Positions 18,001-50,800 of a stretch of 64,000 nt of DNA are shown here, piece after piece (positions within the stretch are counted from its first letter, which is position 1; the number at the start of each line of letters is the position of its first letter). This stretch comes from Lagopus muta (Eukaryota; Chordata; Aves; Galliformes; Phasianidae), in contig NC_064449.1 of assembly GCF_023343835.1 (NCBI RefSeq), positions 3,261,778-3,325,777 of the forward strand, read 5' to 3'. Made by a program: the position numbers and the translations under genes. Below the pieces are notes generated by a model. That model had not been told where the DNA came from, searched no databases, and worked only from the letters and a program-made list of their open reading frames with translations.

Positions 18001-21000
18001 TCCTGCTTTCCACCAACTCACCTCCTTCAGCTCCAGCTCAATGATTTGTTCCTTGAAGGAGTAAGCTTTATTCTCCCTCTTCATGTTAGCCTTTTTCATA
18101 CTATCCTGTTGAGCACTGAGAAAAGAAGTTCAGAGATGAATCAGGACTGCTCTGAATTAAGATTCAGGCATAGAAATATAGGAACTCCTGTCCAGAAAAA
18201 GAGCAGCTGACAGATCCATTTGCCCTTAAGCTAGATGCCAGAAGGAATCAACCTCCATGTTCACAGAGAAGGGAAATTATAAAAGTCCTACCTCTGTATT
18301 ATAGACTTATCATACAGTTCTCCCTCCGGTGTCTTCATGATGGCAAATTCCTCTCGAGTAACCTGACACAGAGCTGGATTCTGCATTGATGCTGAGATGG
18401 TGCTGATGAGCTGGGGGAGCACTCTACCAGGTGAGAGCAGAGAGAGAGATCCCACTGCATTCATAGATGACTACCAAGAAAACAAAGAGATAAAAACCAT
18501 GTAACAAGTATTCTTTGACATTGTTTTAAGAGTATGTTCAGATGAAGCAGGCAATGTCATATTCCTTGATAGCAACATCCTTCAAGTTTTAATACCTCAC
18601 CCAGTAGGTACCATTGATTTATTTAGAGTTCTACTTAGCACATTCTTCCACCTTAAATCCCAGTAGTTTTTACACTGGAGACCTTCTCTTTGGAACTCCC
18701 TTTTCCCTAACTCACAGGCAGACCTCCTTCCTTACAGGCCAGCTGGTACTTAACTCCACTAAAAGATTACTTTGTTCAAAAACACATCCTCATGTTGACA
18801 GTGGAAAAGCAGAAGTTCACCTGGTTGTCTGGAGCGTAGGCAGTGAGTCTGGGTAATATGTCATTCAGGTGTTTGGTAATAAAGTCTTTGGGATCTATCT
18901 TCATCTTGACAAGGAGGGCTGGCCAAAGACCTGGCTGCACTGCCACTAGCATGAAGAACAAGCAAATATAATAAATACAAAGCAGATTGCAAATACAACT
19001 GAACAAAAAGGCAGGATTAAAAACGAAACAAAACAAGGTATATCACCCACGACAGCGATCTTAACCCTTCACTTACCCAGAGATGGATGATGGCTCACCA
19101 GCAGCATCTCCAGAGCCAGCTTTTCTGTCTCAGTGGAATCCACATCCAGCCCAGCTACACTTGAGATGACACACAGTGCCTCATGAAGGACACGGGGAGG
19201 AATATAAGTCTTTCCTTGCTCCGACAGCTCGCCCGACTCCATCACCAGGACCTCCTGAGGCATAACCTAGCAGACAATTCATCATTAACATCACAGCAAG
19301 CCTTCCTGAGCAAACTTTCCTAGAGTGAAACCATACATAACATCAAAATTTAGCTCATTCTGAAAATGCAATCCTTCAGTTTTCAAAGAAAAGAAAGGAC
19401 AACAGTGGAAGGAAGCAAAGCAAAGTGCTGACAGTGATGGAAGGAATAAGAATGGAGACTATCCTAGATTTGGCATACTGGAGTAAAATAGAACTAAAAC
19501 TAGTACTTTTAGCAAACAGGACTTTGGAAAAGGTTGAATAGTTGGCTAGAATATGTTCAAATTCTGCTGTCTACTTGTACTCAGTATCCTTCAAAAACAC
19601 TTTATTCAAGCAGTATCTGTAACACAAGACTTCATTAAGTCTAGTCACAGAATGGCCAGGGTTGGAAAGGACCTCAAGGATCATGAATCTCCAACCCCCC
19701 TGCCAAAGGCAGGGCCACCAACCTCCCCATTTAATACCAGACCAGACTGTCCAGGGCCCCATCCAATCTGGCCTTGTACATCTCCAGGGATGGGGCATCC
19801 ACAACCTCTCTGGGCAGCTGTTCCAGCACCTCACCACTCTTATAGTAAAGAACTTCCCCCTGACATCCAACCTAAATCTTCCCTCCCTCCCTCAACTTAA
19901 ATTTTTAGTACCTAATTAATGCAACTTAGTCTATTTAGCAAGGTGCAAGGTGTGCTACCTTGTTCAGTGGCATCACACAATGTTTTTCCTTTTCTTTTCC
20001 TTTCCTTTTCTTTTCCTTTCCTTTTCCTTTTCCTTTCCTTTCCTTTCCTTTCCTTTCCTTTCCTTTCCTTTCCTTTCCTTTTCTTTTCTTTTCTTTTCTT
20101 TTCTTTTCTTTTCTTTTCTTTTCTTTTCTTTTCTTTTCTTTTCCTTTTCTTTCCTTTCCTTTTCTTTTCTTTTCTTTTCAACAAAGCTGGAACTGAACCA
20201 TTTTCCTAGCACATTGTATTTCAATGCTAACAGCAAACCTAGGGTAGAGAGCTGACCAGCAGCAGCATACAAACAGCTAAGAAGGAAGGAGGATTCTTGA
20301 CTACTCACCTTATGAGAGCTGAGAACCACTTTTAGCTCCTCTAAGAGCCCGTAGGCCAGTTTGTACCCTCCCAGAGAGGACAAGAGCTTCCTAACTGTCT
20401 GATGGGCCTGCCTTCGAACATGCCAGGTCCGACTCAGCAGCACTGCAACAAGGGCACGGTGATACTGCCTGAAAACAGAGCAACAAACAGGTCTAGCAAC
20501 AGGACACAGAAGCACCAAGCATTCAGCATTCCGTGCAAAGTCCCAGGCCCTCCCTCTCCACCACCTGCATTAACTTCCAGGAATCAGACACAGATCAGTA
20601 GCAGTAAGTGCACTCTACATACTGGATTTTACTCTCGGGGAGCCTCTGCGCGTGGTCCAGGAGGAGGCGTTCAGTCAGCTGCAGCACAGTGCACATGGCT
20701 GGGGAACAAACAAACATTTAAAGCAGTAAGTCATCTCATAAGGAAGCAGATTTATTTTTTTTTTTAGCCTGAGAATGAACAAACAGCAAGCAGGACACAT
20801 TCAGGTAACTGTCCAAAATGAGCTTCTACATAAGCCTTTCTCTGTGAAGCTAGAGATAAGTCCAGCTCAGATCTGACAAGACCAGAAACAGAATTGTGAG
20901 CTAACAGAAATGCAGTTGGCTTCATTCCTGCAGAATTTCACTGACCAGTGAGTGTCTACTTTTGTGTAAATAACAGAGCAAACCAAATAATAACCATCCT

Positions 21001-34199: not shown

Positions 34200-35617
34200 T
34201 AACGGTACAAACTTTATTGGCGTAACTGCAAGAACGTAAATGGAAGCAAAGCGCAGCGAGAGCGTTACATGGCGGGGAGGCGACGCGGCGACGCCCAGCA
34301 GAGCCGGTTATTGCCTTCCGAGGGCTGCAGGGCTCGGCCCGCCCGTAGCGCCGTTGCGAGGAGGCGGCACCGGCACAGCCCGGCACGGCGCTCCGCCCCC
34401 CGCGGCTCTCCGCCCCGCCCCGCCCCGCAGCCCGAGCTGCGCTCCCCGGCCCCGAGCCGCGCTAAGCGGCGCCCCGCGCCCGTTGGGTTGAACGGCACCG
34501 CCACCGCAGCGCTGATAGAAAAGTCGCTCTCTTTAAAATCACTTCAAAACCAATTTCTGTATAAGAGGATTAAAAGCAAATTAGATACGAATTCGAAAAT
34601 CAGTGTAGAAATCTTATCAAAGACAGGATACAGTATTCGTTCCCATAGTAAAACCGGGCGTGTCGCAGAGCCCGCCCGGGGTTTGGCAGAACAGTCAGTA
34701 TAAAAGTTATTGCTGTAGCATCTCTTAGTAGCACACGTGGGACGGGAGCAGAGAGGGGAAGGGCCGAAGGCTGGCAGCTCTCGTTAGCAAAGAGAGGAAG
34801 AAGAAAGAGAAAGTTAGGACTTGGTTTGTTTCCTGGCTTCTTAAACCCCTTCGCTTCTTCCCCCCCTCCCTCGGGAGGAGCTCGGGCCCTGACAGTGGGA
34901 CACAGCCTGCACTCCTGCTGGGGATGGGCAGCAGTGCTGTGCTCTGACTCCCTGCACCAAGGCTTCTGAAGGGGGACAGCACCCACTGCTTCCACGTGCT
35001 GAGAAGAGGCACGGAGTAACAAACCAGGAAGAACCCACAGAGTAACACCTTCATTCCTCTTAAAACAACAACAACAAAAAGTGGTATCAACTCCTTACAG
35101 TGTAATGGAACTGGAGAGACCCTTGCAGGGCCGTGGCAGCCCTGTGCTGAGGCTCTGGTCTGTAAGTCACACATGCCACGTGGCTCTAGGAGCAGAGGCA
35201 GGGTGCTGCTGAGATCACGGGATGCCCTCGCTGTGCCAGGTGTCAAAACTGCTGCCTGCAAGTGTCAGGGTTTGCCCAGAGCTGACACAGGCAGAATCCT
35301 GCATGCAGAGCTGCTCCTGGCAGCAGGGGCTGAGGACAGCCTCCCCGTGGAGCCCTGGGGCTAAGCTCAGCTGTCAGTCATACACAGATACACCGTAATG
35401 AGGGGACCGAGCCTCTCTCTACTGAGACACAGCAAGGGCATTTCCAGTTTAATGGTCCGTCTCATCTCTGGATCTACTGCCTCTCTGCAGCAGCACTGAG
35501 CACTGCCACCCGCCCCCTCCCCTGCCTGGTAAGGTTTCTAAATCACAGTAATGTTCAAAGAGACAGAACTGCCACAAGGGGCGGCAGAAAGATGCTTAGC
35601 TCCCATCTATGATGCCT
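34200..35617 (-). other. PXN: PXN 3'UTR
   Basis: 1.4 kb from the paxillin stop to the poly(A) signal with no splice signals needed. Its last 300 nt (34200-34510) are CpG-rich and unlike the rest. No repeats recognised. Confidence 0.75.
34213..34218 (-). terminator. PXN: PXN poly(A) signal AATAAA
   Basis: Minus-strand CCAATAAAG; cleavage expected near 34190-34200, about 260 bp upstream of the RPLP0 start site. Confidence 0.8.
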
Positions 35618-35884
35618 TTAACAGAAGAGTTTGAGAAAGCAGTTCTGACAGTAGGGCTTGTCGTTCTGTTCTTTGAAGGTTCCTTTGTTGAGCTGCTTGA
35701 GGCAGAAGGCACAGACAAAGTGTTCAGGGTGAAATTTCTTGCCCATGGCAGTGATGCAGCGTCCCGTGATGGGCTTCTGGCAGCCAGAGCACAGCGAGCC
35801 GCGGCGCTCGTGGTAATGCACCTCACAGTAGGGCTGCCCGTCGTGCTCGAAGAAGCTGCCGTTGATGAATGGCGTGAAACATTC
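35618..35884 (-). CDS. PXN: PXN last coding exon (LIM3 end, LIM4)
   Basis: Residues 472-559 and [19 protein letters not shown], then CSGC (503-506) LIM4, ending NCFLKLFC. Confidence 0.98.
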
Positions 35885-38800
35885 CTGCAGGAGGAGAAAG
35901 CAGAAGGGGACAGGTTCAGCAATGAGCTGGGGATGCGGGCAGCTCACAGACCTCAGCTCTGCGGCACAAACCGGCCGCACCGCAGGCAGTGCGAGTTGCT
36001 GCCTTTCATCATCCTGCCGTGCACCGAACCAAACTCCTGTCTGTTGAGAAGAGCCTCTGAGGAAAGGCCGAGAGATGGACAGGTACAGCCACAGGCAAGG
36101 GAAACAGCCATGGCTTCAGCTGGCTTCCCTCACACAAAGGAAATAAAACCAGCTACCAGGCAGGAGGAGGAACGCTCCTTCCCTTGGGACAGGAAACACT
36201 GCAGCACCTTCCTCTCCTTTTATCTCCTAATCTCGGCCCAGCTTCCCCACAGTGGGAACCAGGGAACGGGGACTAACAAAGTTTTCTTACAGCAAAATGT
36301 AATGAATTTGGGGCTGGTTCTAAAAGACAAAAAAGAATGTTTTCAAAAGCAGTCTCTGCAGCACAGCTGGCATTACAGATATGCTTTGCACAGGATCCGG
36401 ATTCCATTCACTGAACACAGCAGCAGAAGGGCGCAGAGGAGAAGCCAGATCTCCAGAATCCAGCCCAGACACCAACCTCTTTCCCACAAAGAAAGCTCAG
36501 CTGGGCCCCAACACAAACAAGAGCCCAGCAAACAACATGCAGAGCCACAAGCAGCTGAACACTCACAACACCATGGTCAAACACCATTTGCCTACAGCAA
36601 GTCCAAAACTTATCTAGTGCAGACAATTAGTCCAATAAACAGCCTCCTCCCTCAGCAGCAGGGAGTCTTCTCTGCTTTGGCAAAATGGGCAAGAGAATCC
36701 TGCTTTGTGTCTTGGAAGACATCAGAGCTAGCCCCACTAAAACAAGCAGTGTGGCAGCAGGGAGAAGGAAAGCAGAACTGCATGAAAGCAGCTCAGTGCT
36801 GGCACAAAAAGCCTGGCCCTGCCTGGCCCCACGCAGCAAGCACTGCCATTTTCTGGCTCCACTCCCCATGCGCCACTGCAGGAGCCAGACAGCAATGGAC
36901 AGGCAGTGCAGTGCCCTGAACAGCAGGAACCAGCAGCTCGTGATTCTGCTGCTTAATCTGGCCTCTGCCTTTTTGTTTCACTCTAGGAAACTCTGGCTTG
37001 TATTTGCTCTTCTCTTGGGGCCTGTAAGAGATAATATTTGCAAGGCTCTCTGAAAGAGTGCCAAGCATTTAATCTGCAGTATTCCTGTTTATTATGCCTG
37101 TTGTATGGAGCCTGCCACTATTCCACTGACGTGCATGCTTGTCTGAACAAGGTCAGTTTCATTAGTTTATGCTGTCAGATGGAGCATGAGAGGAAGATCC
37201 TCAAAATCTGATCGTTGAGGCAAGTGCTTAGAGAGAAGCTTAGCTTATAATTGTTTAAAGGTCACAAAACATGTCTCTGTTTATCTGTGCTCTGCTGCAG
37301 AAGCCCTTTAACTGCAGCTGGGAACAGAAAGAGCAATGCAGCAAGAAGGTTTCATGTAAACAGGCAGAGGAGCAAGAAGGTGTTTGGTTGCTGACATTTT
37401 CATCTCGTGGTGCTGGTGGTCTCTCATGACCCCAGAGATTCCTCCTTCCTGATAAGGGACCAGATGCCTGCAGGACGTGAAGGACAGGGGTCCAGCAGCC
37501 ACAAAGGACCTTGGTTTTCTTACCCGGCAGACAAAGCACTCAGGATGCCACAGGGTGTTTAAGGCAGAAATGTAATTTTCCAGGATAGCCCGGGCACAGC
37601 CTCCACACTTGGGAGCAAACATGTCAAAGTAATCCTTGCGGCAATAGGCTTTGCCATCCTTCTCATGAAATCCTGCCAAAGAAGAACAAAGATCATCAGC
37701 TCCAGACCCTCATCTATGGCAGCCAAGCTCTGTGGGGTAAGCAGCGTGGGTAGGATCACCCTTCCTCTCCCCTAACACACAGCAGGCAGCTGTTTCCTGC
37801 TGCCCTTCCTGTCCTGTGCACACACATGCTCATCCTCTCCAGGGACTAAGAGAGTGAAAAGATTTCTGTGAGATCCTTCCCCCATGAACAGCTACTTCCT
37901 TAGAACTTCCATCTCCAGTATTTCCTGTTAACTCAAGCTGGCCCCTAATAGCAGCTCTGCCTTACACACCTGTCTGCAGTTCAGGAAGGAGAATGTTTTC
38001 CCCTCACATTAACCCATAATACCTTCAGGTCCAAAGAAAACTCCACACTGGGCACAGAAAAAGTGTTCAGGGTGCCACGTCCTGTCCAAAGCCGTCACCA
38101 CTTTCTGTTCAGAAGAAGACACAAAGAAAAGTCACATAAATCATGGCTTCAGCTTGGAGGTGAGCAAGAGGGGAGGGAAGAACACATTTAAGTCAACACT
38201 GCCAACTGCACACATCAAAATAGATTGTTCTTTATAGAGCTGAGTCAATTCTTCCCCATCTCTAGCTCTTTTAGACCTTCCCTATGGCATACTTTTTTTT
38301 TTAAACCCTAAAAAGACCCTGCACACTGCTTCCTCCCTTACACAGGGCCCCTCCAGCTCTCAGGACTAGCACTGGTGCTGTTACTACAGGCTACCAGCAG
38401 AAAAGAGCTGGGGAGTCATAATCAAAACGATGAAACCACATGGAGTTTCAAAGGATTACAGCTTCAGGGAAGGTGAGGGGGACCAAACCACCTCATTAAT
38501 GTAAAAAGTTGTACCAGATGGTGCTGTTTGCCTTTCACAGCAAGGGCAAAGGCAAAACAGAAGCCCCTAAAAACACCTTTCACACAGGACACACAGATAG
38601 AGCTTTTAACAGCAAGGCCTGCAGCACCTCGCCAGCGCTCTGAACCCTAGCCAGGAACTCACATCAAGGATTGGCCCATTGCAGTAGTAGCAGCGAGGAG
38701 AGAAGAGGTTGTGATAGTCCTTCTCGCAGTAGGGCTGCCCATCCCGCTCAAAGAAGTTCCGTGACCCGATCTCCTCCTGGCAGTGGGTGCAGACAAAGTG

Positions 38801-41800
38801 CTCAGGGTGCCAGGTTTTCCCCATGGCTGTAACTACCTGTTGGGAAGACAGATTATGAAGGACAACTCCATCTCGCTCTCCCCAGACCACATGACAAGAC
38901 ACCAGCTGGAGGTCAGCAAGAATGGCAAGTTCTACTACTCAAGTGGGCCCTGGACTGGGGTAGCATGAAAACTGAATTACCTATCATCTCAGGAGAGGGC
39001 AGTCCCTCAAGGGCAGAGTAGAGGTCACTGGAGGAGCTTACAGCGTACCTAGCCAGTGGATAAATAGAGTACTTCAGTTTCTCCAGCATCTCCAGTCTCT
39101 TCAGCCTCACGAAAGAAGCCCTCCCCACTGCTCCCAGCTGCAGGCCAAGGCTCAGCAATCAGACAGCACCTTCAACCCACCTGCCCAGCAATCGGCTTCT
39201 TGCAGGCTCCACACACACCCTTGGCGACTGTTGCTACCCCCAGTTTGTTCAGGTCAGACTGCAGGCTTCCCAGCATGGTGTCCAGCTGACTGCCAGGCTT
39301 GGGGGTGGTGGATGGTGGGGAGCTGCTGCCGCCGGCCTTCCCCTGTGCCATGAACTGCAGGGAAGAGAAAACAAAGATTATACAGCAAACGTTGCTGCAC
39401 TTCCCAGAAATATCTCTGCTCTTGCTGCCAGTGGCACTTCTGTAGAGACAAACCAGAGGCTGCTAGGAGACAGCTACACTCTCTGCAGAAGCCTGGGAGA
39501 GCCAGGATCAAGTACACACATTCTGCCCATGCAGAGACATGCAGAGACCATGGGATGTAAAACAGCAGAGCTGGCAACTAAGGATTTGACTTTCTTTTGC
39601 TGTACACACAGCAGAAGTTACTAGCTGTTCCCAAACACTCAGTACAGTGCTCTGTAAGCCTCTGCCAAAAATCTCCCTTTACCTCATCAGTTCCTGGCCA
39701 GCTGTCAAAGCACAGACGCCATCCAGAGGGCCCCTTCCCTCTGACCTCTTTCTGTTCTTACTGCCACTCTATCCTTCTTAAAGGGATTCCTCCTCCACTC
39801 TCCATCTCCCTTTCAGCTAGATCTCCCTTTCCTCCACCTGCACTCCTTACGGACATTTCCTTTTTTGCCAAATCTCCTTTGCCCCATCAGGTGGCTCTCA
39901 TCCCACGCCAAAGCTAAGCAAGTGGAAGCAGGAAGGAAATTCCCTTCAAGCTGCCTGTTGTTTACCCACACAGAGGGCAGTGGATCCACAGCAGAGCCTG
40001 AGCAGACAGGGCTGCAATGGAAACAGTGCCACGTCTGTTGCTGGACCTTTGGAAATGCACAGGGAAGGGGCTACAATCCTCATCCCAGGGGCAGCTTCTG
40101 GAACTCCACAGTCACAGTACACACGGCTTGGAATGGCTCCCCAGAGGAGAACAGGGAGAGAAGTTTTATTTAGGTTCACAACTTAGGAACAAAGTATGTG
40201 CTCTCTCTGGACACCAAAGCTGCTTTTACAGGAGAACTGCAGTAATGAGATAGAGATATTTTAGCTGACTGCACAGCAGTAGCTACTCTCAGGCCTAGAA
40301 AGACCCACAGAAGTCGTGTCGTCCCCCCCCGAGATGCTGCTCTGAAGCATGTTTTCTCCTGCCACGGAGTCAAGATTAAAAACAGATGTGAAATCCACAC
40401 TTCTGAACAACCCACTAGCTGCCATCATGGGCAGGGGAGCAGGACTTCCTGAGGTGTTCGAGAGCCCTGGCAGATTCTACCCTTCCAGCCACTGGAGGAG
40501 CTCTACTCCCTGTCCTGCAGCCAGTCGTGCTTGTAGCCAACCAGCTGACTCAGTGACCAACCTTGGTTTCCACTTGTCTGTAGAAAAATTCTCATGACAT
40601 ACATAATTTCCCAGCCCAGCAGCACAGAAAAGCCCCAGTGTCTGGAGCCTGGAATAAACTCTCTGCCATACAGCTGTTATTGCTACCAAACAGCTACAGT
40701 GAACATCTCCAAAGCACTCCACTGCAAGGAGACTGCTCACAGGAGAGGGACAGCAGGGCCCCATGTACACAGAGCCAGGGCAGAGTCCCAGGACAAGGTC
40801 AGGCACAGCACGAGGAAAAGGTTGGACAGAACTAAAAGAATCAAATCCTCTCTCGCTGAGCAGGGGCTTGTGGCCACAAAGCACAGGTTACACAGAGACA
40901 AATCATAAATACCATCTGGAAAGAAAGGAGAGGAGAAGAATTCAACATGTAGAAACACAGCACTTGTGGTGCCTTGCTGGTGTGGGCCATGCAGATGACC
41001 TCAGTGCAGGCCCAATGACCTGAGCACACCGCCACCACTACTTGGTTCAGCCTTCTGCCAGCTCACAAGTTTGTTTCCAACCTCCTGCACACACTGCCTG
41101 CTATTTGAAGGGGACACAGCACAGAATCCACACAAATCCGTCATGCAAAGGCCCTTCAAGCTGTCCCTTCACCACAAGACCTACCAGCACTCCGATTCAG
41201 CTGGGTGCTGTAGGAGCACCAAACCATGCACTACCAGACAGCAGCTAGGATCACCACGCTGCAAGCTCCAGGAGCAGCTCCCAGCACACACATCCACCCA
41301 AAAGCACACCATGCTGAGAGGAAACAAAGGAGCTCCTGCCTTCTCAGGGCTGGGAGGGGCTGGGGGCGCGCAGGCAGCCAGCAGGTTGGCACTGCAGGTG
41401 AGGGGAGGAGCAGAGGTCACCTGAAAAGTACAACAGTTCAGGATGCAGAGGCTGGCTATCTGCTGAGACCTGCTTGTACAAATAGCATGGCAAAACACCG
41501 TGCTGCTCACGTGTGTTACACCTTCCCAGCATCCCAGGGCTGCAACCCCTCCCTGACAGGAGGCACAGAGCAGCAGCTCCTCCTCCAAATGCAACAGGGA
41601 CACCTCATCACACGGGTAAGCACAGGAAGGATTGAGATTTTGCTGTCAGTTTTCCATCCCTCTTCCCATCTCATGAGAGGTTGTGGCAGGGAGAGTTGAG
41701 ACCTGACTTTCAGAGCTACCTCCTTCATCTCAGAGGGAAACAAATCACAATCCCTGCTGCACAAAGGGCAGACAGGAAGCACCAACATCTCAGCAGACTG

Positions 41801-44800
41801 GTGCACAACCATGTAGTTTGCAGTGCTAGGCAGGCACAGCTGGCATTGATTTGATACCACTAATGACTCTGCTCTTTCATTAAGTGGTTCAGAGCCAGCC
41901 TTCACCTGAACATCGTGTTTACTGAGCTACCAAGCTGACAGCAGTGCAAAGACTGGACAACACTGTGCTTAAAATTAAATAAAAAAGAAAGCAGAAAAGA
42001 GAATCCTGCCTGCATCCGCGGGAGGAAAGCCTCATCTTCTGTTTGACAGCCAACAGAAACGACTGTCTTGGTGCTAGGGGTCCAGGTCTGGGGAGAAGAG
42101 TGCCTAGGATCTTCAGAAGGAGGGGTGCCCACAACAGAGAGCTCATGATAATCAGCACCAGAAGCTTCCCACTGGAAAAGTGGCTGGGGAGCCAAGCGGG
42201 AGGAATAGGAGGAGGCTGGACATGGAGCTGAGGTAGCTAGTGCATGGGAGGGCTGAGCTGGCAGTGGGAGGACAGGTACGTGAGAGGGAGAAGCATTAGC
42301 AGGGACTGTCTTCACAGCTTCATTGGAAGGCTGGAGCGGGGGAGAGGCTGAAACAGAGACTGTCCTCCTTCGAGGGTGTGGGGATTCTGGAGGCAATACC
42401 ACCTAGAGAGACAGGGAAGAAAAGTGAGTAAATCCAAAGAGGAACCAACAAGCACCTCCTGCAACAGGAAGGCTGGAAGCACAGACCAGTGAGTAACGAT
42501 CTTTGCTGCCTCGTGCTCTCCCTCCTGCTCTTCTGAACCTCCCTGGTTTACATCAGAGCACAACTGGAACATCAACCTCACTGCCACACAGCCCAGCAAA
42601 GCAAGTAAGGACAGAGGCCTCTGGTTACCATCTTTATCTAAGGGGAAAAAAACAGCAAAGAGCCAAGGGACAGGGAAAACAGAGAAGGGAACCAGAAAGC
42701 TTCCTTCTCTGTGTAGCTCTAAGAGCACCATCTTACACCCAGAACTTCCTGCACAGGCACGTACTGGGAAAGACAAGGCATCCCTCTCTGACAAGCCTCC
42801 CAGAAGGGTTTTCAAACAATACCCACATGGGTATTTGATATGCAATAGCAGCAGATTGCCTAAACAGATACCATTACCAGCACCCTTAGATATCCAATTC
42901 TTAAACATGAACTAGGAACTGAGAGCCAGTTTACTTTTCAGGTCAGAAGAGGCTGAGAAGGAGGAGTTAGTTCTTCACTTCATGTTGTTTAAGGTGTCAC
43001 CTAACATACATCTCCACAAAATGCTGCCTAGACAGGAACATGCTCCAATTTCCCAGAAGTGGAAGTTCCCCTCACTTTCTACCTTCTCTATTTGCTGTCC
43101 ACCATTTTGCTCTTCCCCCTGGGGTCGGGCAGTGATAATGACCCCCTCTGTCAGCCAGCCATTCTGGCTTTTCTGCTCCTCTTTTTCCTGTTTAGCAACT
43201 CCCAGTCTGTCCTGCAGCTCTTCAATCAAGCGATCTTGGGACTTGGTCTTGTGAAATATTGCAGGACCTAATTTACGCCTTGGAGAGAGGTCACGACTCA
43301 TTGGATGCACATTGGAGGTTTCTTTTGTCCTCTTGATTAAAGACTTAATCTAGATGAAAAAGGCAATAGTGTCAGCAGAGAAAAGAGTAAGAGCAAGCCT
43401 CAAGATGCAACAGCACAAACTCAAGCCATTAGTGACAAATGTATGCAGGGAGAGTGATGACATTAATTCCACAATGCCAAAATTCTTCTTGGCACAGTCC
43501 AGAACAGTGACTCAGTGCAAGGAAAAACTCTGTAAGGATAACCACTGTAGCCAAAAATAACTATCTAGAAAAGGAAGGGAAAGATTACCCAGCAGAAAGC
43601 CAAGATACGAGGTGCAGCACAACCATTCCACTGAGCATTAAAGAAACTTCAGCATCACAAAGAAACACGGCAGACTTTCAGTGTGTGCCCTTTACAAGCA
43701 CAAGACTCGTGGTCTGGTGCACCAAGCATACATCCAGAGCTGGAAGGAACACTAACAGGTCCAACAACAAGACCTAAAAAGGCAGAGGGACATCCTCCAG
43801 AGGAGTGAATCAGCCCTTTAACTTTTCAGAGGCCTTTATGGACTGAGCATCTGCCTTATTCCATTTAAGGAATAAAAACCCATTTCACTGGGCAGTCCCT
43901 ACACTCTGCCATGTTCTGTGCTGCTGACTGACCTGCAGAACGGACCAGAGGACAAAGCAGAGGACTTAAAGCCTCCATGACATGCAGCTGTCAGTAGCGC
44001 TGCTCAGCACCACATGCTGTTAGTGTGGGTGGGCCCAGGCACACTCACACCACACACAAAACGTTAGTGCAGTCAGGACAGCCCCAGCTAGGACTCATCC
44101 TCCTCCCACATTTGTTCAGTGCCTGCCTGGCCTGATGCAGAAATCCTCTCAATGGGTGGTTTGGAGAGGCATGGCAAATCCCATTCAGCTTTCCAAGTGT
44201 TTTCAGGAGATTCTGGAGCAACTGCAGAGCTTCTGAGCTGCTCATTTTCTCCATCTTCTCCAGCTTTGTTCATGTTAGCAGTACCTGCCTTTCTGGGAGT
44301 TCTCTCCCTGCCCTGCCTCTTCTTGACCAGCTCAGGACAGCCACCTACTTGGATTTCAGGTGATACTTCAGCCTTTTGCTCCTGTCCTCGCTCCACAGCA
44401 AAGCCCAACTGTTTTTCAGTGTCTGGGAAGACAGCCCACTGATCCAGTCCCACAACAGAAGGGTCACACACAGGACTCAAAATGCTGTCACCCTTTCTGT
44501 GTACTTCTGGTACGTGCTCAGACAGCTCCAGGGCCCACAGCTCATCTAAAGCTGCTTTCACACTTCTGCCCTGAGAAGGAAGGGCTGAATTATCCCTGAA
44601 CACTCCCTGCTGATCCAATTCTTTAGCTGCCTGCTCCTTCCCTTGATCACTTATACCAGTGTTTGAAACTGAGACGCTTGAGAGTCTGGGGTCACTTCTC
44701 TGCTCCTTTTTCTCACTCTCTTTTGCCAGCTCCAGGCCCTGTGCCTCCACCTTAGCAGATCTACACAGCAGCTCAGCCCTGGGCACAGCCTGGGAAGTCT

Positions 44801-47800
44801 TCCTGGAAGAGTCAGGCTTTCCAACCAGCCTCACCAAACTTGCAGAGGCCATCTGTTCCCCACGAGTAGCAGAAACAGAAGAGACACGTGGAGGGGGCAC
44901 AGGGACCATTTGTGGCAAAGAGGGTACGCGTGGAAGAGTGGCACACTGCCCCAAAGCAGGCCACACTACAGTGCTAATGCCTTCCTCAGCACAGAGAACT
45001 GCTGAGGGGGAACCTGCTGGCACTGCCACATCCCCGCTGTGCCTGACAGAAGGGCATTTGGAAGGGGATAGCACGGTTAAACTGGGAGGAATGCTGCTGG
45101 AGTCTGCATCTGCTGAATCGGGAACCAGTTCTAGGGAGGGTTCAGGAATCAGAGACATAGTCTGCAAAAAGGAGAGAGAAGAAAGAAGGAGAAAAAAAAG
45201 AAAGATAAGAAATAAGAAACAGAGGGCAGAAAAAAGAAGCATGGTATAAAGTGTTTTAACAATTGTGATCTCCAAATCAGGAGCCATGTTGATCCTGAGC
45301 CTTACATCAGAGAAACAGGAATGAGAACAGGGTAGCAAAGAGGAGAATCGATGTGACATTGTGCTGATCTTTGCATGAGATCACAGGATATGAAGCTGAA
45401 CAGCCATCAAGATCGTTTTTCTCTGCCACCCTCTTACGTAACACCTCATGTGTTCACCTGCAGTGCGATGGGGGCACGCAGCAGCTGCCAGGAAGCCAGC
45501 TATAAGCCCAGGAATGTCTGCACTGCGGGTGAAGGTCACATTAGCAACTCACTCATACTCAGCTATGTACATTCTATATTTCAAAGCTGGAAAAAAAAAA
45601 AAAGCAATCGATGAATAGAACAAACCATGACATTTCTCCATGCACTAAAACTGCTCCAGTTGCCCGAGTTCACAGCAGTGAGAACAAAGCCTCAGGGCAT
45701 GCACAACAAAAGCAGATGACGCGGGCTTTGCTCTACTCACTGAATCAATCTCACCTTGGAGGTGATACACAGTGAATCACAACGGCTTTGCCAGTCATTC
45801 CATGCCCTTCTAAACTTTGCTTAGATTGCCAGATGAACCTCTTCTCCTTAGGTCACAATCTCCACATTTCAATTGTAACAAGATCAGTATTCATTTTAAT
45901 CCAAAATACACCCTAACAAGAGTGACTGAGACAAATTTGTTTGCTCTCCTTGGCTCAGAGGGTTTTTAAAATAAAATAAGAATCATGGATCCTCCTTTTC
46001 CTGTTTTCAGTGGCTCCTGGCTGAGCCTTAGGAGACAAACTGGCATTGCACCTTTTTCTCAAAGAGAGAAAAATCAGAACGTTGCCGTAGCCAAGTTCAC
46101 ACAGTAGGTCAACCTAAGGCCAATGCAGAGCCCTGTCATTTTAAAAAACCTATCCAAAGTTCTCCAAATCCAATAGATATCAAGATATGCTCTGGTTCTT
46201 CACTGTGTTTTTTGAAAAAGCTTTAAGAAGTTAGACCCTCACATCCTAATGTAGCAACAGCTCAGTCTTTACTTACCTGTATGGGGACTTGTCATGAATA
46301 AAAGGAAAAAATTAACCAGAACACAAACATGATCTGCCAATAGCTGGAAGAGACCTGCAGGTGACCTAAGCAGCTCCCAGGCCAAGGGGTCATGAGCCAG
46401 CAAGCACACACACTGGTGAAGTCCCCAAGTAGTGCCATGGAGGGGCATCTTAGAAAGCAATAGGGGGATTGCAATTAATCACAGGTTGCTCCTCATTTCC
46501 AGGAGGAAATCAAGATGAAAAGAACCAGCAAGTACATTAATTAGTTACAATAACAAGGGAATTTCCTCATATTGCCCTCCTCCCTGTATTTTGCCTAACG
46601 TGGATGTACCTGTACAAATGGGTGTTACACTATAGTTCACTTACTCAGTTTCCAGACTTTCTAAAACAGTCAGCTGTTGGCAAGGCAGGGCTGGCATTTT
46701 GCTCAGAAGCAAATATTTCCAGCATACTAAAAGCATACTAACTCCAAATTAAGAGCAAGGGCTAAATACATAACAGTAACATAACAGTTAAACAGGAGCA
46801 GCACAATGTGCAGTCAGCTGGAGTCACATTACACAGAAATGTCAGAGGCAAAAGAACCAAGTGCATTAAGTAACCTCAGTGCTGATGAGCTAGATAACCA
46901 AAATCAAATGGATCCTGTAAGCAAAAAGAACGAGCAACTCATTAAAGTGAGCAAAAGATAAAAGGGTAATGTATCAGTCTGTAACAGCATCTGTTACTCT
47001 GGGCTATGACAGAAGTGAAACACTGGTGCTGCCACCTCTCCCACTGCCATCCACTGGGGCCTGCAGCAGCCACCAACTCCAGCTAATTACATACTGCACT
47101 TCGTTCCTCTGTCCTTTTTCTTGCAACCACACACAAGTCTGGCACGTGAATGACAGCCTTTTCTTTTTCACCATTGGGAAAGACCCCACTTCTCCCCCTT
47201 ACACCCTGTCACTGGTACAGACTAGATCATCTTTACAGAGAAGTCAGCACCACCCATTGGCACAAACAGGGGAGGTAAAAACAAAGAAAAAGGACTGAAA
47301 GGAAAAAGAAAAACAGGATAAAGTAAAGCAGCTGTCCAAAAGCAGCCAATGACAATAATAATAAAAGAGAAACTATTACAGAAATCATGTTGCTGGTTCT
47401 GTGGGGAAAAACATTTAGACAGACAACGATCCTGAGCTCAATGCCTTTCAAAAACCCTAACACTGCATTTATAAATCTTGAGATCTTGTTGCATTTCAGG
47501 TTGCTTTTAGAGTTCAAGCAGAAAAGAAGCCAGGAAGGAGGGCAGTGTTACAGAAAGCATCTAGCCTCATCCATGCAGTTTTATTGGAGTTGCACAAAAC
47601 AAGAAGGCCTGTTCTGGGCAAGGACATCCCCTGCTGCCAAAGCTCACCAGGACCAAAGGCTGGTGGCAGGAACCACACCTTGAGCTTGCTTTCTGAGCCC
47701 TGATAAAGCAGCAGGAGGCCCTGGCACTGACAGCACGCAGAAGCAGCGAGGCAGGGTACGCTGCCAGCAGCACAGGTGGGAACTCTCCAGCTTCACAACA

Positions 47801-50800
47801 GCACAATTTTTCAACTGCAAGGAACAGATACTCGCTGATAGCCTGCTCTCTGCCCTAGGACCTAATATGGAAAAAGAAAAGCACCAGTAAGGCATCACTA
47901 TTTGCAGTGACTAAATACGTACTAAATTAAGTCCAGAGAAAACAGCGAGTTGCTCCTTGAGTCTCACAAAGTCAAGTACGTGAGTCACAGACTGCAGGCT
48001 TGAATTGAAGCCAATAAGTACAGGGCAAGCAAAGTCCCGAGGAGCATGCAGGCTTCTCAGCTGCCTACATCTTCTCAGAAAACATTGCTCAGCTCTGACT
48101 GCCTTGGGACCAAACTCATGGTAGGGGATGGAGGTTAACACAGCCAAGAAACATCACCAAGTACTGGCAGATTCTTCCATGTGAGGAAAATGTAAGAGAG
48201 TTTGGAACTTTTGTAGGATTACAAAGCAGACTTGCACGTGTATGTAAGAAAGGCACACCCAACAATGACAACATATTAGGTATGTGCTTCTCCACCTCTC
48301 TCGGAACAAATTCAAGGGAATAATTCAGCAATGCTATAAGCAAACAAGTAGAGAGAGCAAAATTATTTTGCTATGACTGTGGGTAGATGAACCATGAAAA
48401 TAAACTCCAGTTAACCACCTAGTGTAAAAAGGATAGGATACCTAATTGAATAGAAATGCATGCATTTGTAAGTTCTCTAAGTACACAGAGCAAGTGCTTG
48501 ATGCTCCAGTGGCAAGTTATTCCTCCACTACTTCTATTAGGGGAATTTTTTCGTGTGTCACTTGTGACTGAAGTAGCAGTCCTTTTCCAACACAGTACAT
48601 TGATTTGCAAACAAGATCCTGAATAGTGTTTGCCATCCTTCACCCACACAAGCTCAGTCTCTAATCCTATTTGGAGCTGAATAATTGATACTGTTTTAAA
48701 ATTGAAACCCTTGAAGTTTTCAGCTGCTTGATGCAAAGGTTTCAATGCTCATACCACATGCCTTTAAGCCCCAAATACCCTCCTCAGGAAAGCACAAAGT
48801 ATAAGCACACTGCTGCAGAGGGTCAGCCCATGGAACAGAAGAGCCTGGCCCCTGTCATGGAGCAGAGCGGTGCTGTCTCAAGCTTCCCTACTTCTCATTC
48901 AGTTGCAGCATAGCAAAATAATTCACCCTGCACCGAGCAGCAACTAAGCTTGTTATCTTTGCCAAATGCAGACAAACTGCAGAACAGATGGAAAAACAGA
49001 CCCCAGAATTCCCTTGCCCACACCAGCGACAGGAAACTATTGCAGTCAAGAACCTATAGCAGCACAAACACCACCAAAGGAAGTTCCACAAGACGAGAGG
49101 TAAAGCAGGCATTCAGGAAATCAGTTAAGGTCAGCAGATGTGGCCAACATGCAAGAGCCTGGGCGTGGGAAGGGATGAGATGAGGTGCGAGCTGTCAAGA
49201 TAAAGCACCTTAAAGTCAGAGAGGGACGCCATCAGCTCATCCAGTTCTCGTGTGGCTGAAGAAGCAGAGATACGGGTCTGCTGCTGACTGGCGGTGACAC
49301 GCTGGGGGCTGCTCACCTCCCCTTGGCTCACAGTGATTGCAGGGCTGATGAAAATAAAATATATTTATTTTTAAAGAGTGCACCTAGGCCTGGGGGAGAG
49401 TTCCTAGACTGAAAGCCTCACTGGCTCCTCTAAACAAGCAAGCGTGGCAAGTGTCATCAGCACTGCTCTCCCTAGCCAGCCCTCCCACTGATCCAGCTTC
49501 TGCAACACACACAGGTCCTGTCTCTCTGCCAAGTCTAACATGAGTGTACATGCACATACATCCACCCATTACTGAACGGATCATGACCAAACACTCATCT
49601 GGACAGACAGCTATAAACCTGAGCTTAAAAAAAATGTGCCACAACTCAAGTATTCCTTCATCCAGGAAGAGCTGCAGCAGATAGAAGAGCAGGAGCATCT
49701 TCAAGTGCCTGCTTGACTTCCCACTCTACAGCCAAGGGACGTCTGTCTGTCTCTGTCCCACAACATCTGCCCCTCCACTACACTCCCTATTCCCATAACA
49801 GCCCGCCCAACCCCACTGCATCCACCAAAGCACTACTTACACTGGGCTTGGCACAGAGCTCTCCAACTCATCCAGCAGGCTCTCCACACTGGGACGCACA
49901 TCTTCGATCCCACGCCCACCATTTCGCTTTGGTTTTTCTTTTGTAGGGGGTGCAGCCTTCCCCCCTGCAGAGCTGCTGCTCTCTGGGACAACATAGTGAG
50001 GTCCGGTCACGTTGGGCAGTGATGGGCTTCTGCTGACTTCATCTTTAGAACAGAGGAGCAGAGTTGTTCAGACACATAGGCCCATGTATATATGCAAACA
50101 AGAGAAAAGAGCCCAGAAACCCTGTGGAATCTCCATCTTTGAGAATATTTAGAACTTAGAGCACAAGCAACATGTGCTCTAACTTTGAAATTGTGAAGTT
50201 AGAGTCATTTCCAAAGTTGGCCCAGCACTGCTGAACCTCAAGAGATCCTATCCATACTAAAGGAATCTTTGTTCAGGGCTGGAGTCATCTTCCTCAGCAA
50301 GGCTGTTGGAAGGAAGAAGCAGGCTGCTACTCTGGGAAGTAAGCTATTCACTAACACCAAATGTCTTGCTAGTCCTTACCTGCTGGGAAGCCACTGGAGG
50401 GATTATGTTGAACAGCATTCAGTTCCAGGAGAAGCCTGTCCAGTTCCGAGAGGTTGCTGCCCAGAGAGGTGCTGGTCATGGTGGGAGATGGTTCTGCAGA
50501 CTTCTGCTTGTTTGGGAAGCTAGAGATAAAAGGGAAGTGTAAAACTTCTGCTTTAAGACACAGCAGAATGATGGAGGGAAACTTAGATATTAAGTTCACA
50601 GAGTTCACACAGGTACTGTGTTATTTTCAGGCTGAGGTTTGTAGCTCTGTGGGCAAAGCTGTGTGCGTTGTGAAATGACTATCCCCACAGCTGCTGTTTA
50701 GCCACATCTTCACTTGTCAGTTACAAAGAAACAGCACTGATAGAAAGGGGCTCAGATCTCAGGACTCTGCTGCACTGTCCTACAGCAAAGAGTTAACTGT

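Follow-up and report, generated by a model that had tools for sequence, protein, structure and literature searches.

Paxillin is a standard focal-adhesion marker that is usually studied as a single short protein. Here we describe three open segments, designated A, B and C, in the intron between the exons for the LD4 and LD5 motifs of the paxillin gene, PXN, on the minus strand of a 64,000-nucleotide stretch of the Lagopus muta genome (assembly GCF_023343835.1, contig NC_064449.1, positions 3,261,778 to 3,325,777; hereafter the window). The closest described system is the zebrafish insert pxnb-ins, in which three alternatively spliced exons (E7-9) place 625 residues between these same two motifs (Jacob, Turner and Amack 2016, PMC5091871). 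The pxnb-ins form was detected by reverse transcription polymerase chain reaction, its in situ hybridization signal lay in the myosepta and fin bud, and a weak band of ~130 kDa was seen in later embryos. Partly homologous stretches occur in gar, coelacanth and elephant shark (PMC5091871). Insertions downstream of LD4 are also known from mammalian paxillin beta and gamma, with 34 and 48 residues, and at least 26 additional human paxillin splice variants are predicted in GenBank (PMC5316197).

We consider it quite likely that A, B and C are true coding cassettes in the PXN gene of birds, probably often skipped, and the counterpart of the fish pxnb-ins insert. The three are very probably coding, a case that is made by their open frames, their three-base periodicity, a base pattern shared by A and C, and their splice sites; codon bias forms no part of it.

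Three open segments in the LD4-LD5 intron of PXN

The Pfam family Paxillin matched four stretches on the minus strand of the window, beyond which lie exons that we take to be of LIM type from their motifs. The LD4-LD5 intron of PXN is 9,854 nt long, between 49209 (the last base of the LD4 exon) and 39354 (the first base of the LD5 exon). The LD4 exon ends on SDFK and the first codon of the LD5 exon (F) is complete, which means that any insert must be in phase 0. The exons, segments and candidate borders are as follows (a slash marks the exon border).

49209..49344, minus strand: PXN exon with LD4; ends ...SDFK; donor AAG/gtgctt, phase 0
44127..45161, minus strand: exon A, preferred model; 345 codons; acceptor tttttgcag/ACT; proposed GC donor GGCCAG/gcaggc, phase 0
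44349..45161, minus strand: exon A, shorter alternative; 271 codons; GT donor ATCCAA/gtaggt, score 6.89
44088..44090, minus strand: in-frame TAG closing segment A, after 357 sense codons
43083..43349, minus strand: exon B; 89 codons; acceptor catctag/ATT; GT donor GAGAAG/gtagaa; phase 0 at both ends
42010..42402, minus strand: exon C; 131 codons; acceptor ctctctag/GTG; GC donor ATGCAG/gcagga; phase 0 at both ends
39181..39354, minus strand: PXN exon with LD5; starts FMAQGK...; acceptor ccctgcag/TTC; donor GGGCAG/gtgggt

The three segments thus lie in series between the LD4 and LD5 exons, the location of a pxnb-ins type insert, and the phase 0 frame is open throughout each of them, while the other two frames contain 11 and 27 stops in A, 6 and 5 in B, and 2 and 8 in C. 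An initial annotation of this locus had proposed them as a cluster of in-frame cassette exons, and its coordinates, strand and phase for all three, as well as its ends for the LD4 and LD5 exons, proved right. So did its description of the acceptors as strong: among the 4,839 minus-strand AG sites scored as acceptors, those of A, B and C ranked 3, 104 and 15, respectively, and those of the real LD5 and LD4 exons 18 and 241.

Downstream borders are less simple. Segment A ends in an in-frame TAG, so inclusion of its full length is impossible and an internal donor is needed, leaving its 3′ border uncertain; the 358 codons originally assigned to it from 45161 include this stop, and no 3′ splice site had been given. 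For C, the 3′ border at 42010 in phase 0 stands, but its donor is GC instead of GT, as we found no usable GT donor and only CAG/GCAGG at that position. The summed open frames permit 565 residues (345+89+131, with A to 44127) or 491 (with A to 44349), so that the several hundred residues of a pxnb-ins type insert are reached by the open frames alone. The annotation's proposal that the cassettes could roughly double paxillin is supported by these frames, their periodicity, their splice sites and the zebrafish precedent, except with A at its full length.

An ATG forms the second codon of A (45156-45158, minus strand), which also allows A to be read as an independent frame of 356 codons.

Coding signature of A, B and C

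Three-base periodicity was compared with that of same-length, overlapping windows of the intron. The value for A (8.76; 8.14 for codons 1-345) was reached by none of 243 intron windows and that for C (5.34) by none of 329; B was weaker (1.89, with 32 of 355 as high). Seven exons that we took as known ranged from 0.94 (LD4) to 7.37 (LIM4).

We also trained models of base by codon position on one segment and applied them to another in thirty-codon blocks. The model from C gave positive scores (4.7 to 19.6) in all 11 blocks wholly inside A (codons 1-330), relative to +2.8 and -2.9 in the two blocks before A and -6.0, +2.1 and -3.6 in the three after its stop. Reciprocally, the model from A scored 10.5, 17.1, 7.6 and 6.0 in the four blocks wholly internal to C, relative to -0.1 and +1.8 in two blocks before it and -5.0, -12.3 and -4.8 in three past it. 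A full codon model, trained on 1,040 codons of the window, favored frame 0 of B (+11.4 bits vs. -15.5 and -16.6 in the other frames) and was slightly positive for C (+2.2).

Dinucleotide shuffling left A open in 0 of 20,000 trials (mean 14.3 stops), B in 270 and C in 279. In a first scan for cassettes (acceptor of at least 9, phase 0 frame of at least 80 codons, phase 0 GT or GC donor of at least 2), seven matches were obtained on the minus strand of the window and two on the plus strand. Five of the seven were in the LD4-LD5 intron: two that share the proposed end of A, one each for B and C, and a weak match at 41552-41235 (periodicity 1.3). The remaining two coincide with sites already read as exons of RPLP0 and GCN1, names that we gave to open reading frames of the window on presumption. 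Sixty shuffles of the intron produced a mean of 0.03 and a maximum of 1 match. A second scan used thresholds near those of the real PXN exons. With GT donors only, it found three intron matches (A to 44349, B, and 41552-41292), whereas 100 shuffles averaged 0.09 and gave no more than 3; when GC donors were allowed it found six (shuffle mean 0.12, maximum 2). Over the whole minus strand it returned 5 matches (GT only) or 12 (GC allowed), and over the plus strand 3 or 4, some of them off known exons.

The additional cassette-like candidate at 41235-41552 (minus strand; 106 codons, phase 0, acceptor 9.4, donor 3.3) appeared at every scan setting. Its periodicity of 1.3 is that of background, and it is probably due to chance.

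A, B and C were also searched for in the 1.03-Gb genome (165 contigs), where each matched only itself at an E-value of at most 1 among the best candidates scored.

Candidate ends of segment A

In addition to the GT donor at 44349, A contains phase 0 GT donors at 44835 (109 codons, score 7.65) and 44751 (137 codons, 5.01), and a phase 0 GC donor, AAG/GCAGG, at 44289 (291 codons, 3.39). No phase 0 GT donor scoring above 2 was found between 44349 and the stop, and the remaining phase 0 donors close to the end of A are GC. The octamer CAGGCAGG occurs on the minus strand of the intron in two copies only, one at the end of C (42010) and one at codon 345 of A (44127), both in phase 0. Among 4,112 GC sites, CAG/GCAGG ranks 28 at 42010 and 24 at 44127, and AAG/GCAGG at 44289 ranks 5.

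The position model built from A and C together was used to examine the part of A beyond 44349. Codons 272-357 were matched by a fraction of only 0.0007 of intron draws, codons 292-345 being the strongest part of this tail (0.0013). The pattern was lost in the 86 codons past the stop (0.78), and other control stretches, upstream of A (0.40), past B (0.95) and past C (0.67), likewise resembled the intron. The coding pattern in the tail speaks, not conclusively, against the strong GT donor 44349 as the main end of A. We propose that both CAGGCAGG copies serve as the GC donors of A and C, which would give the insert of 565 residues. As to the choice of donor, we infer that A ends at 44127, with about an even chance that this is correct; 44289 (GC, with a higher score), 44349 and 44835 (both GT) are possible.

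Properties of the encoded residues

Segment A has a high content of Ser, Glu, Pro and Ala; B is enriched in Lys, Glu and Gln, and C in Pro and Ser. The label Ser/Pro-rich, originally applied to all three, therefore suits C (32.8% Ser plus Pro) and A (22.1%) and does not suit B (11.2%). Single-sequence AlphaFold models of A and B were of low confidence. In that of A (mean predicted local distance difference test score, pLDDT, 45.1), helices were placed at residues 128-149, 172-184 and 201-210, with short strands between 55 and 76; in that of B (mean pLDDT 61.5), helices were placed at 2-8 and 36-63. From these models, the inserted residues would be mostly disordered. Three features of the translated segments are as follows.

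44523..44561, minus strand: LD-like stretch in A, residues 201-213; helix 201-210 in the low-confidence model
43161..43244, minus strand: helix at residues 36-63 of B in the single-sequence model, where no block mean pLDDT exceeds 78
42040..42051, minus strand: GCQT in C, in the context SVGCQTEDE

The GCQT of C resembles a docking motif for dynein light chain (LC8). Residues 205-212 of A, LDELWALE, have L at +3, W at +4 and E at +7 and so differ from the canonical LDXLLXXL; the full pattern was found in none of A, B and C. Pfam gave one weak match for A, at an E-value of 0.046 and under the cut-off, and none for B or C. Among solved structures there was no match for A or B, and C had two chance-like matches (E-values 1.5 and 1.6). 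A search of genome and viral contig collections, with B as the only query of the three, found no relatives of B.

Elsewhere in the window, Rfam produced no match, and tandem repeats include a weak array across the acceptor tract of A. In the region read as GCN1, an open frame on the minus strand contains a TTTTC repeat array of 195 bases (38 copies; 19985-20179). The longest open reading frame listed is one of 439 codons, stop to stop, on the plus strand (35600-36919), partly antisense to the LIM4 exon; given this frame, the length of an open reading frame is alone a poor argument at this locus.

Evidence against the cassette exons and alternative explanations

Several results weigh against reading A, B and C as cassette exons. 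Synonymous codon usage failed to separate the segments from the intron: the fraction of intron draws scoring as high was 0.65 for A, 0.15 for B and 0.35 for C. In A and C, frame 0 scored below both other frames. Among the controls for this test, an exon read as GCN1_b was also worst in frame 0; LD4, LD5, LIM1 and LIM4 were each best in their own frame. In the full codon model all frames of A were negative, frame 0 being the least bad (-20.3 bits vs. -45.2 and -30.2), and its value per codon (-0.057) was slightly below the mean of 138 control open reading frames (-0.033, standard deviation 0.26). A position model from the known PXN exons recognized neither codons 1-109 of A, nor its tail (0.108), nor C (0.318); this model also fails on LIM4. 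The border of C is not sharp, as block 121-150 of its frame still scored +7.6 with 19 of 30 codons past 42010. In the tail of A, the pattern is absent from the 20 codons 272-291 (0.54), leaving room for an end at 44349, and CAGGCAGG has six copies on the whole minus strand, so that two in this intron are not in themselves rare. The thresholds of the first cassette scan were picked after the segments had been scored, and scans restricted to GT donors miss C. The periodicity of the 439-codon plus-strand frame (2.76) was reached by none of 218 intron windows. Finally, loss of the insert in tetrapods has been inferred in a report whose species table includes chicken (PMC5091871).

How else might the segments be explained? 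It is unlikely, in our estimate, that A is an alternative terminal exon or a nested single-exon frame ending at the TAG at 44088, in which case the product would be a LIM-less paxillin (LD1-LD4 followed by 357 residues) or a target of nonsense-mediated decay, and only B and C would be in-frame cassettes (220 residues). Such an exon would fit a codon-position pattern that runs into the tail of A and vanishes past the stop, the lack of a phase 0 GT donor scoring above 2 between 44349 and that stop, and the ATG at codon 2. However, from the stop to exon B we found no AATAAA, ATTAAA, AATACA or AGTAAA, and only CATAAA at 43840 among the variants sought; moreover, the acceptor of A is third of 4,839 and the published fish insert consists of three exons in series. 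Lower still do we rate the probability of decay, with the ancestral vertebrate insert persisting as recently disabled coding sequence. Such decay would explain why A has a stop and why the donor of C is not GT, and it is in keeping with the published inference of tetrapod loss (PMC5091871) and with the lack of codon bias in A and C. Recently disabled exons are less easily reconciled with in-phase frames that stay open over 565 codons, with acceptors that are intact and with a coding signal that weakens beyond the segments. Chance open frames within the intron are hardly credible. They would be in line with the plus-strand frame of 439 codons, for which we know of no gene, with the 270 of 20,000 shuffles in which B alone stayed open, and with the codon-usage tests unfavorable to A and C; yet the periodicity of A and C, the complete absence of open shuffles of A, and a number of cassette matches well above that of the shuffles all speak against chance.

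The set A, B and C appears to us to be one of real, probably functional cassette exons. We infer that the three are spliced, that they are homologous to the fish insert and that they have a functional role. We lean, with less assurance, toward a fuller account in which birds have kept the ancestral jawed-vertebrate LD4-LD5 insert as three rarely used cassettes with weak GC donors; the resulting paxillin would be roughly double the normal size, with one more LD-like helix and a longer tether from the signaling half to the targeting half. Inclusion would lengthen the LD4-LD5 region by as many as 565 residues, mostly disordered, with the frame unchanged, producing a longer flexible arm between the LD half (docking of FAK, vinculin and parvin) and the LIM half (adhesion targeting). 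The LD-like helix of A, the long helix of B and the Ser/Pro-rich stretch of C might provide additional docking sites. Inclusion of B alone would require only the GT-AG sites seen, that of B and C the GC donor of C, and that of A an internal donor. With the same weak CAG/GCAGG donor, as proposed for A and C, skipping may be the default and inclusion regulated; GC donors are reported to be overrepresented in genes with alternative splicing (PMC2490688), in keeping with exons that are skipped as a rule.

Comparison with known paxillin variants

A published long tetrapod paxillin was not recognized by title or opening of abstract among the matches listed in our literature search, outside which lie most subscription journals. 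We take A0A1B0GTU4 to be a longer human record. It is under this accession that a table in PMC11283412 lists PXN, and long tetrapod paxillin models may well exist in databases. PMC10156590 makes no mention of PXN or of paxillin isoforms or exons, and the available portions of PMC9929932 and PMC10179295 hold nothing on a long paxillin isoform.

The mammalian beta and gamma variants are like the proposed bird cassettes in being insertions, by alternative splicing, downstream of LD4. On the numbering of the initial annotation, which placed the mammalian insertions at the equivalent of residues 277/278, the junction is the same, but the mammalian lengths (34 and 48 residues) match none of the segments, which have 89, 131 and up to 357 codons. 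Gamma, moreover, uses an alternative 5′ donor (PMC5316197). With the LD motif family, A shares L-D at positions 0 and +1 in a low-confidence helix and, judged by eye, E-L in the register of the inverse class II; it differs from the canonical motif at +7, which is E in A and hydrophobic in the consensus (PMC7703752).

The likeness to zebrafish pxnb-ins is closer: three segments at the same place between LD4 and LD5, encoding hundreds of residues (625 vs. at most 565-577 here). The reverse primer from zebrafish E10 reads VAKGV (PMC5091871). Since the bird LD5 exon contains these residues, E7-9 lie immediately before the exon for LD5 in zebrafish. The primer from E7 reads RALSP in one frame, and B contains RDLSP, a resemblance too short to count. 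The bird differs in being a tetrapod, with a single PXN gene in the table of that report, and in the GC donors proposed here (PMC5091871). By this comparison, birds have probably retained a counterpart of pxnb-ins in these exons. If so, the insert would have persisted for over 400 million years, and the spacing of LD and LIM halves, that is, of FAK and vinculin docking relative to LIM-mediated targeting, would be a regulated variable that is testable in chick embryos. The published view of tetrapod loss would be wrong if birds do retain the long form. A three-exon LD4-LD5 insert, which the initial annotation does not mention, is already published in fish, and the bird set would be its tetrapod member, challenging that inferred loss (PMC5091871).

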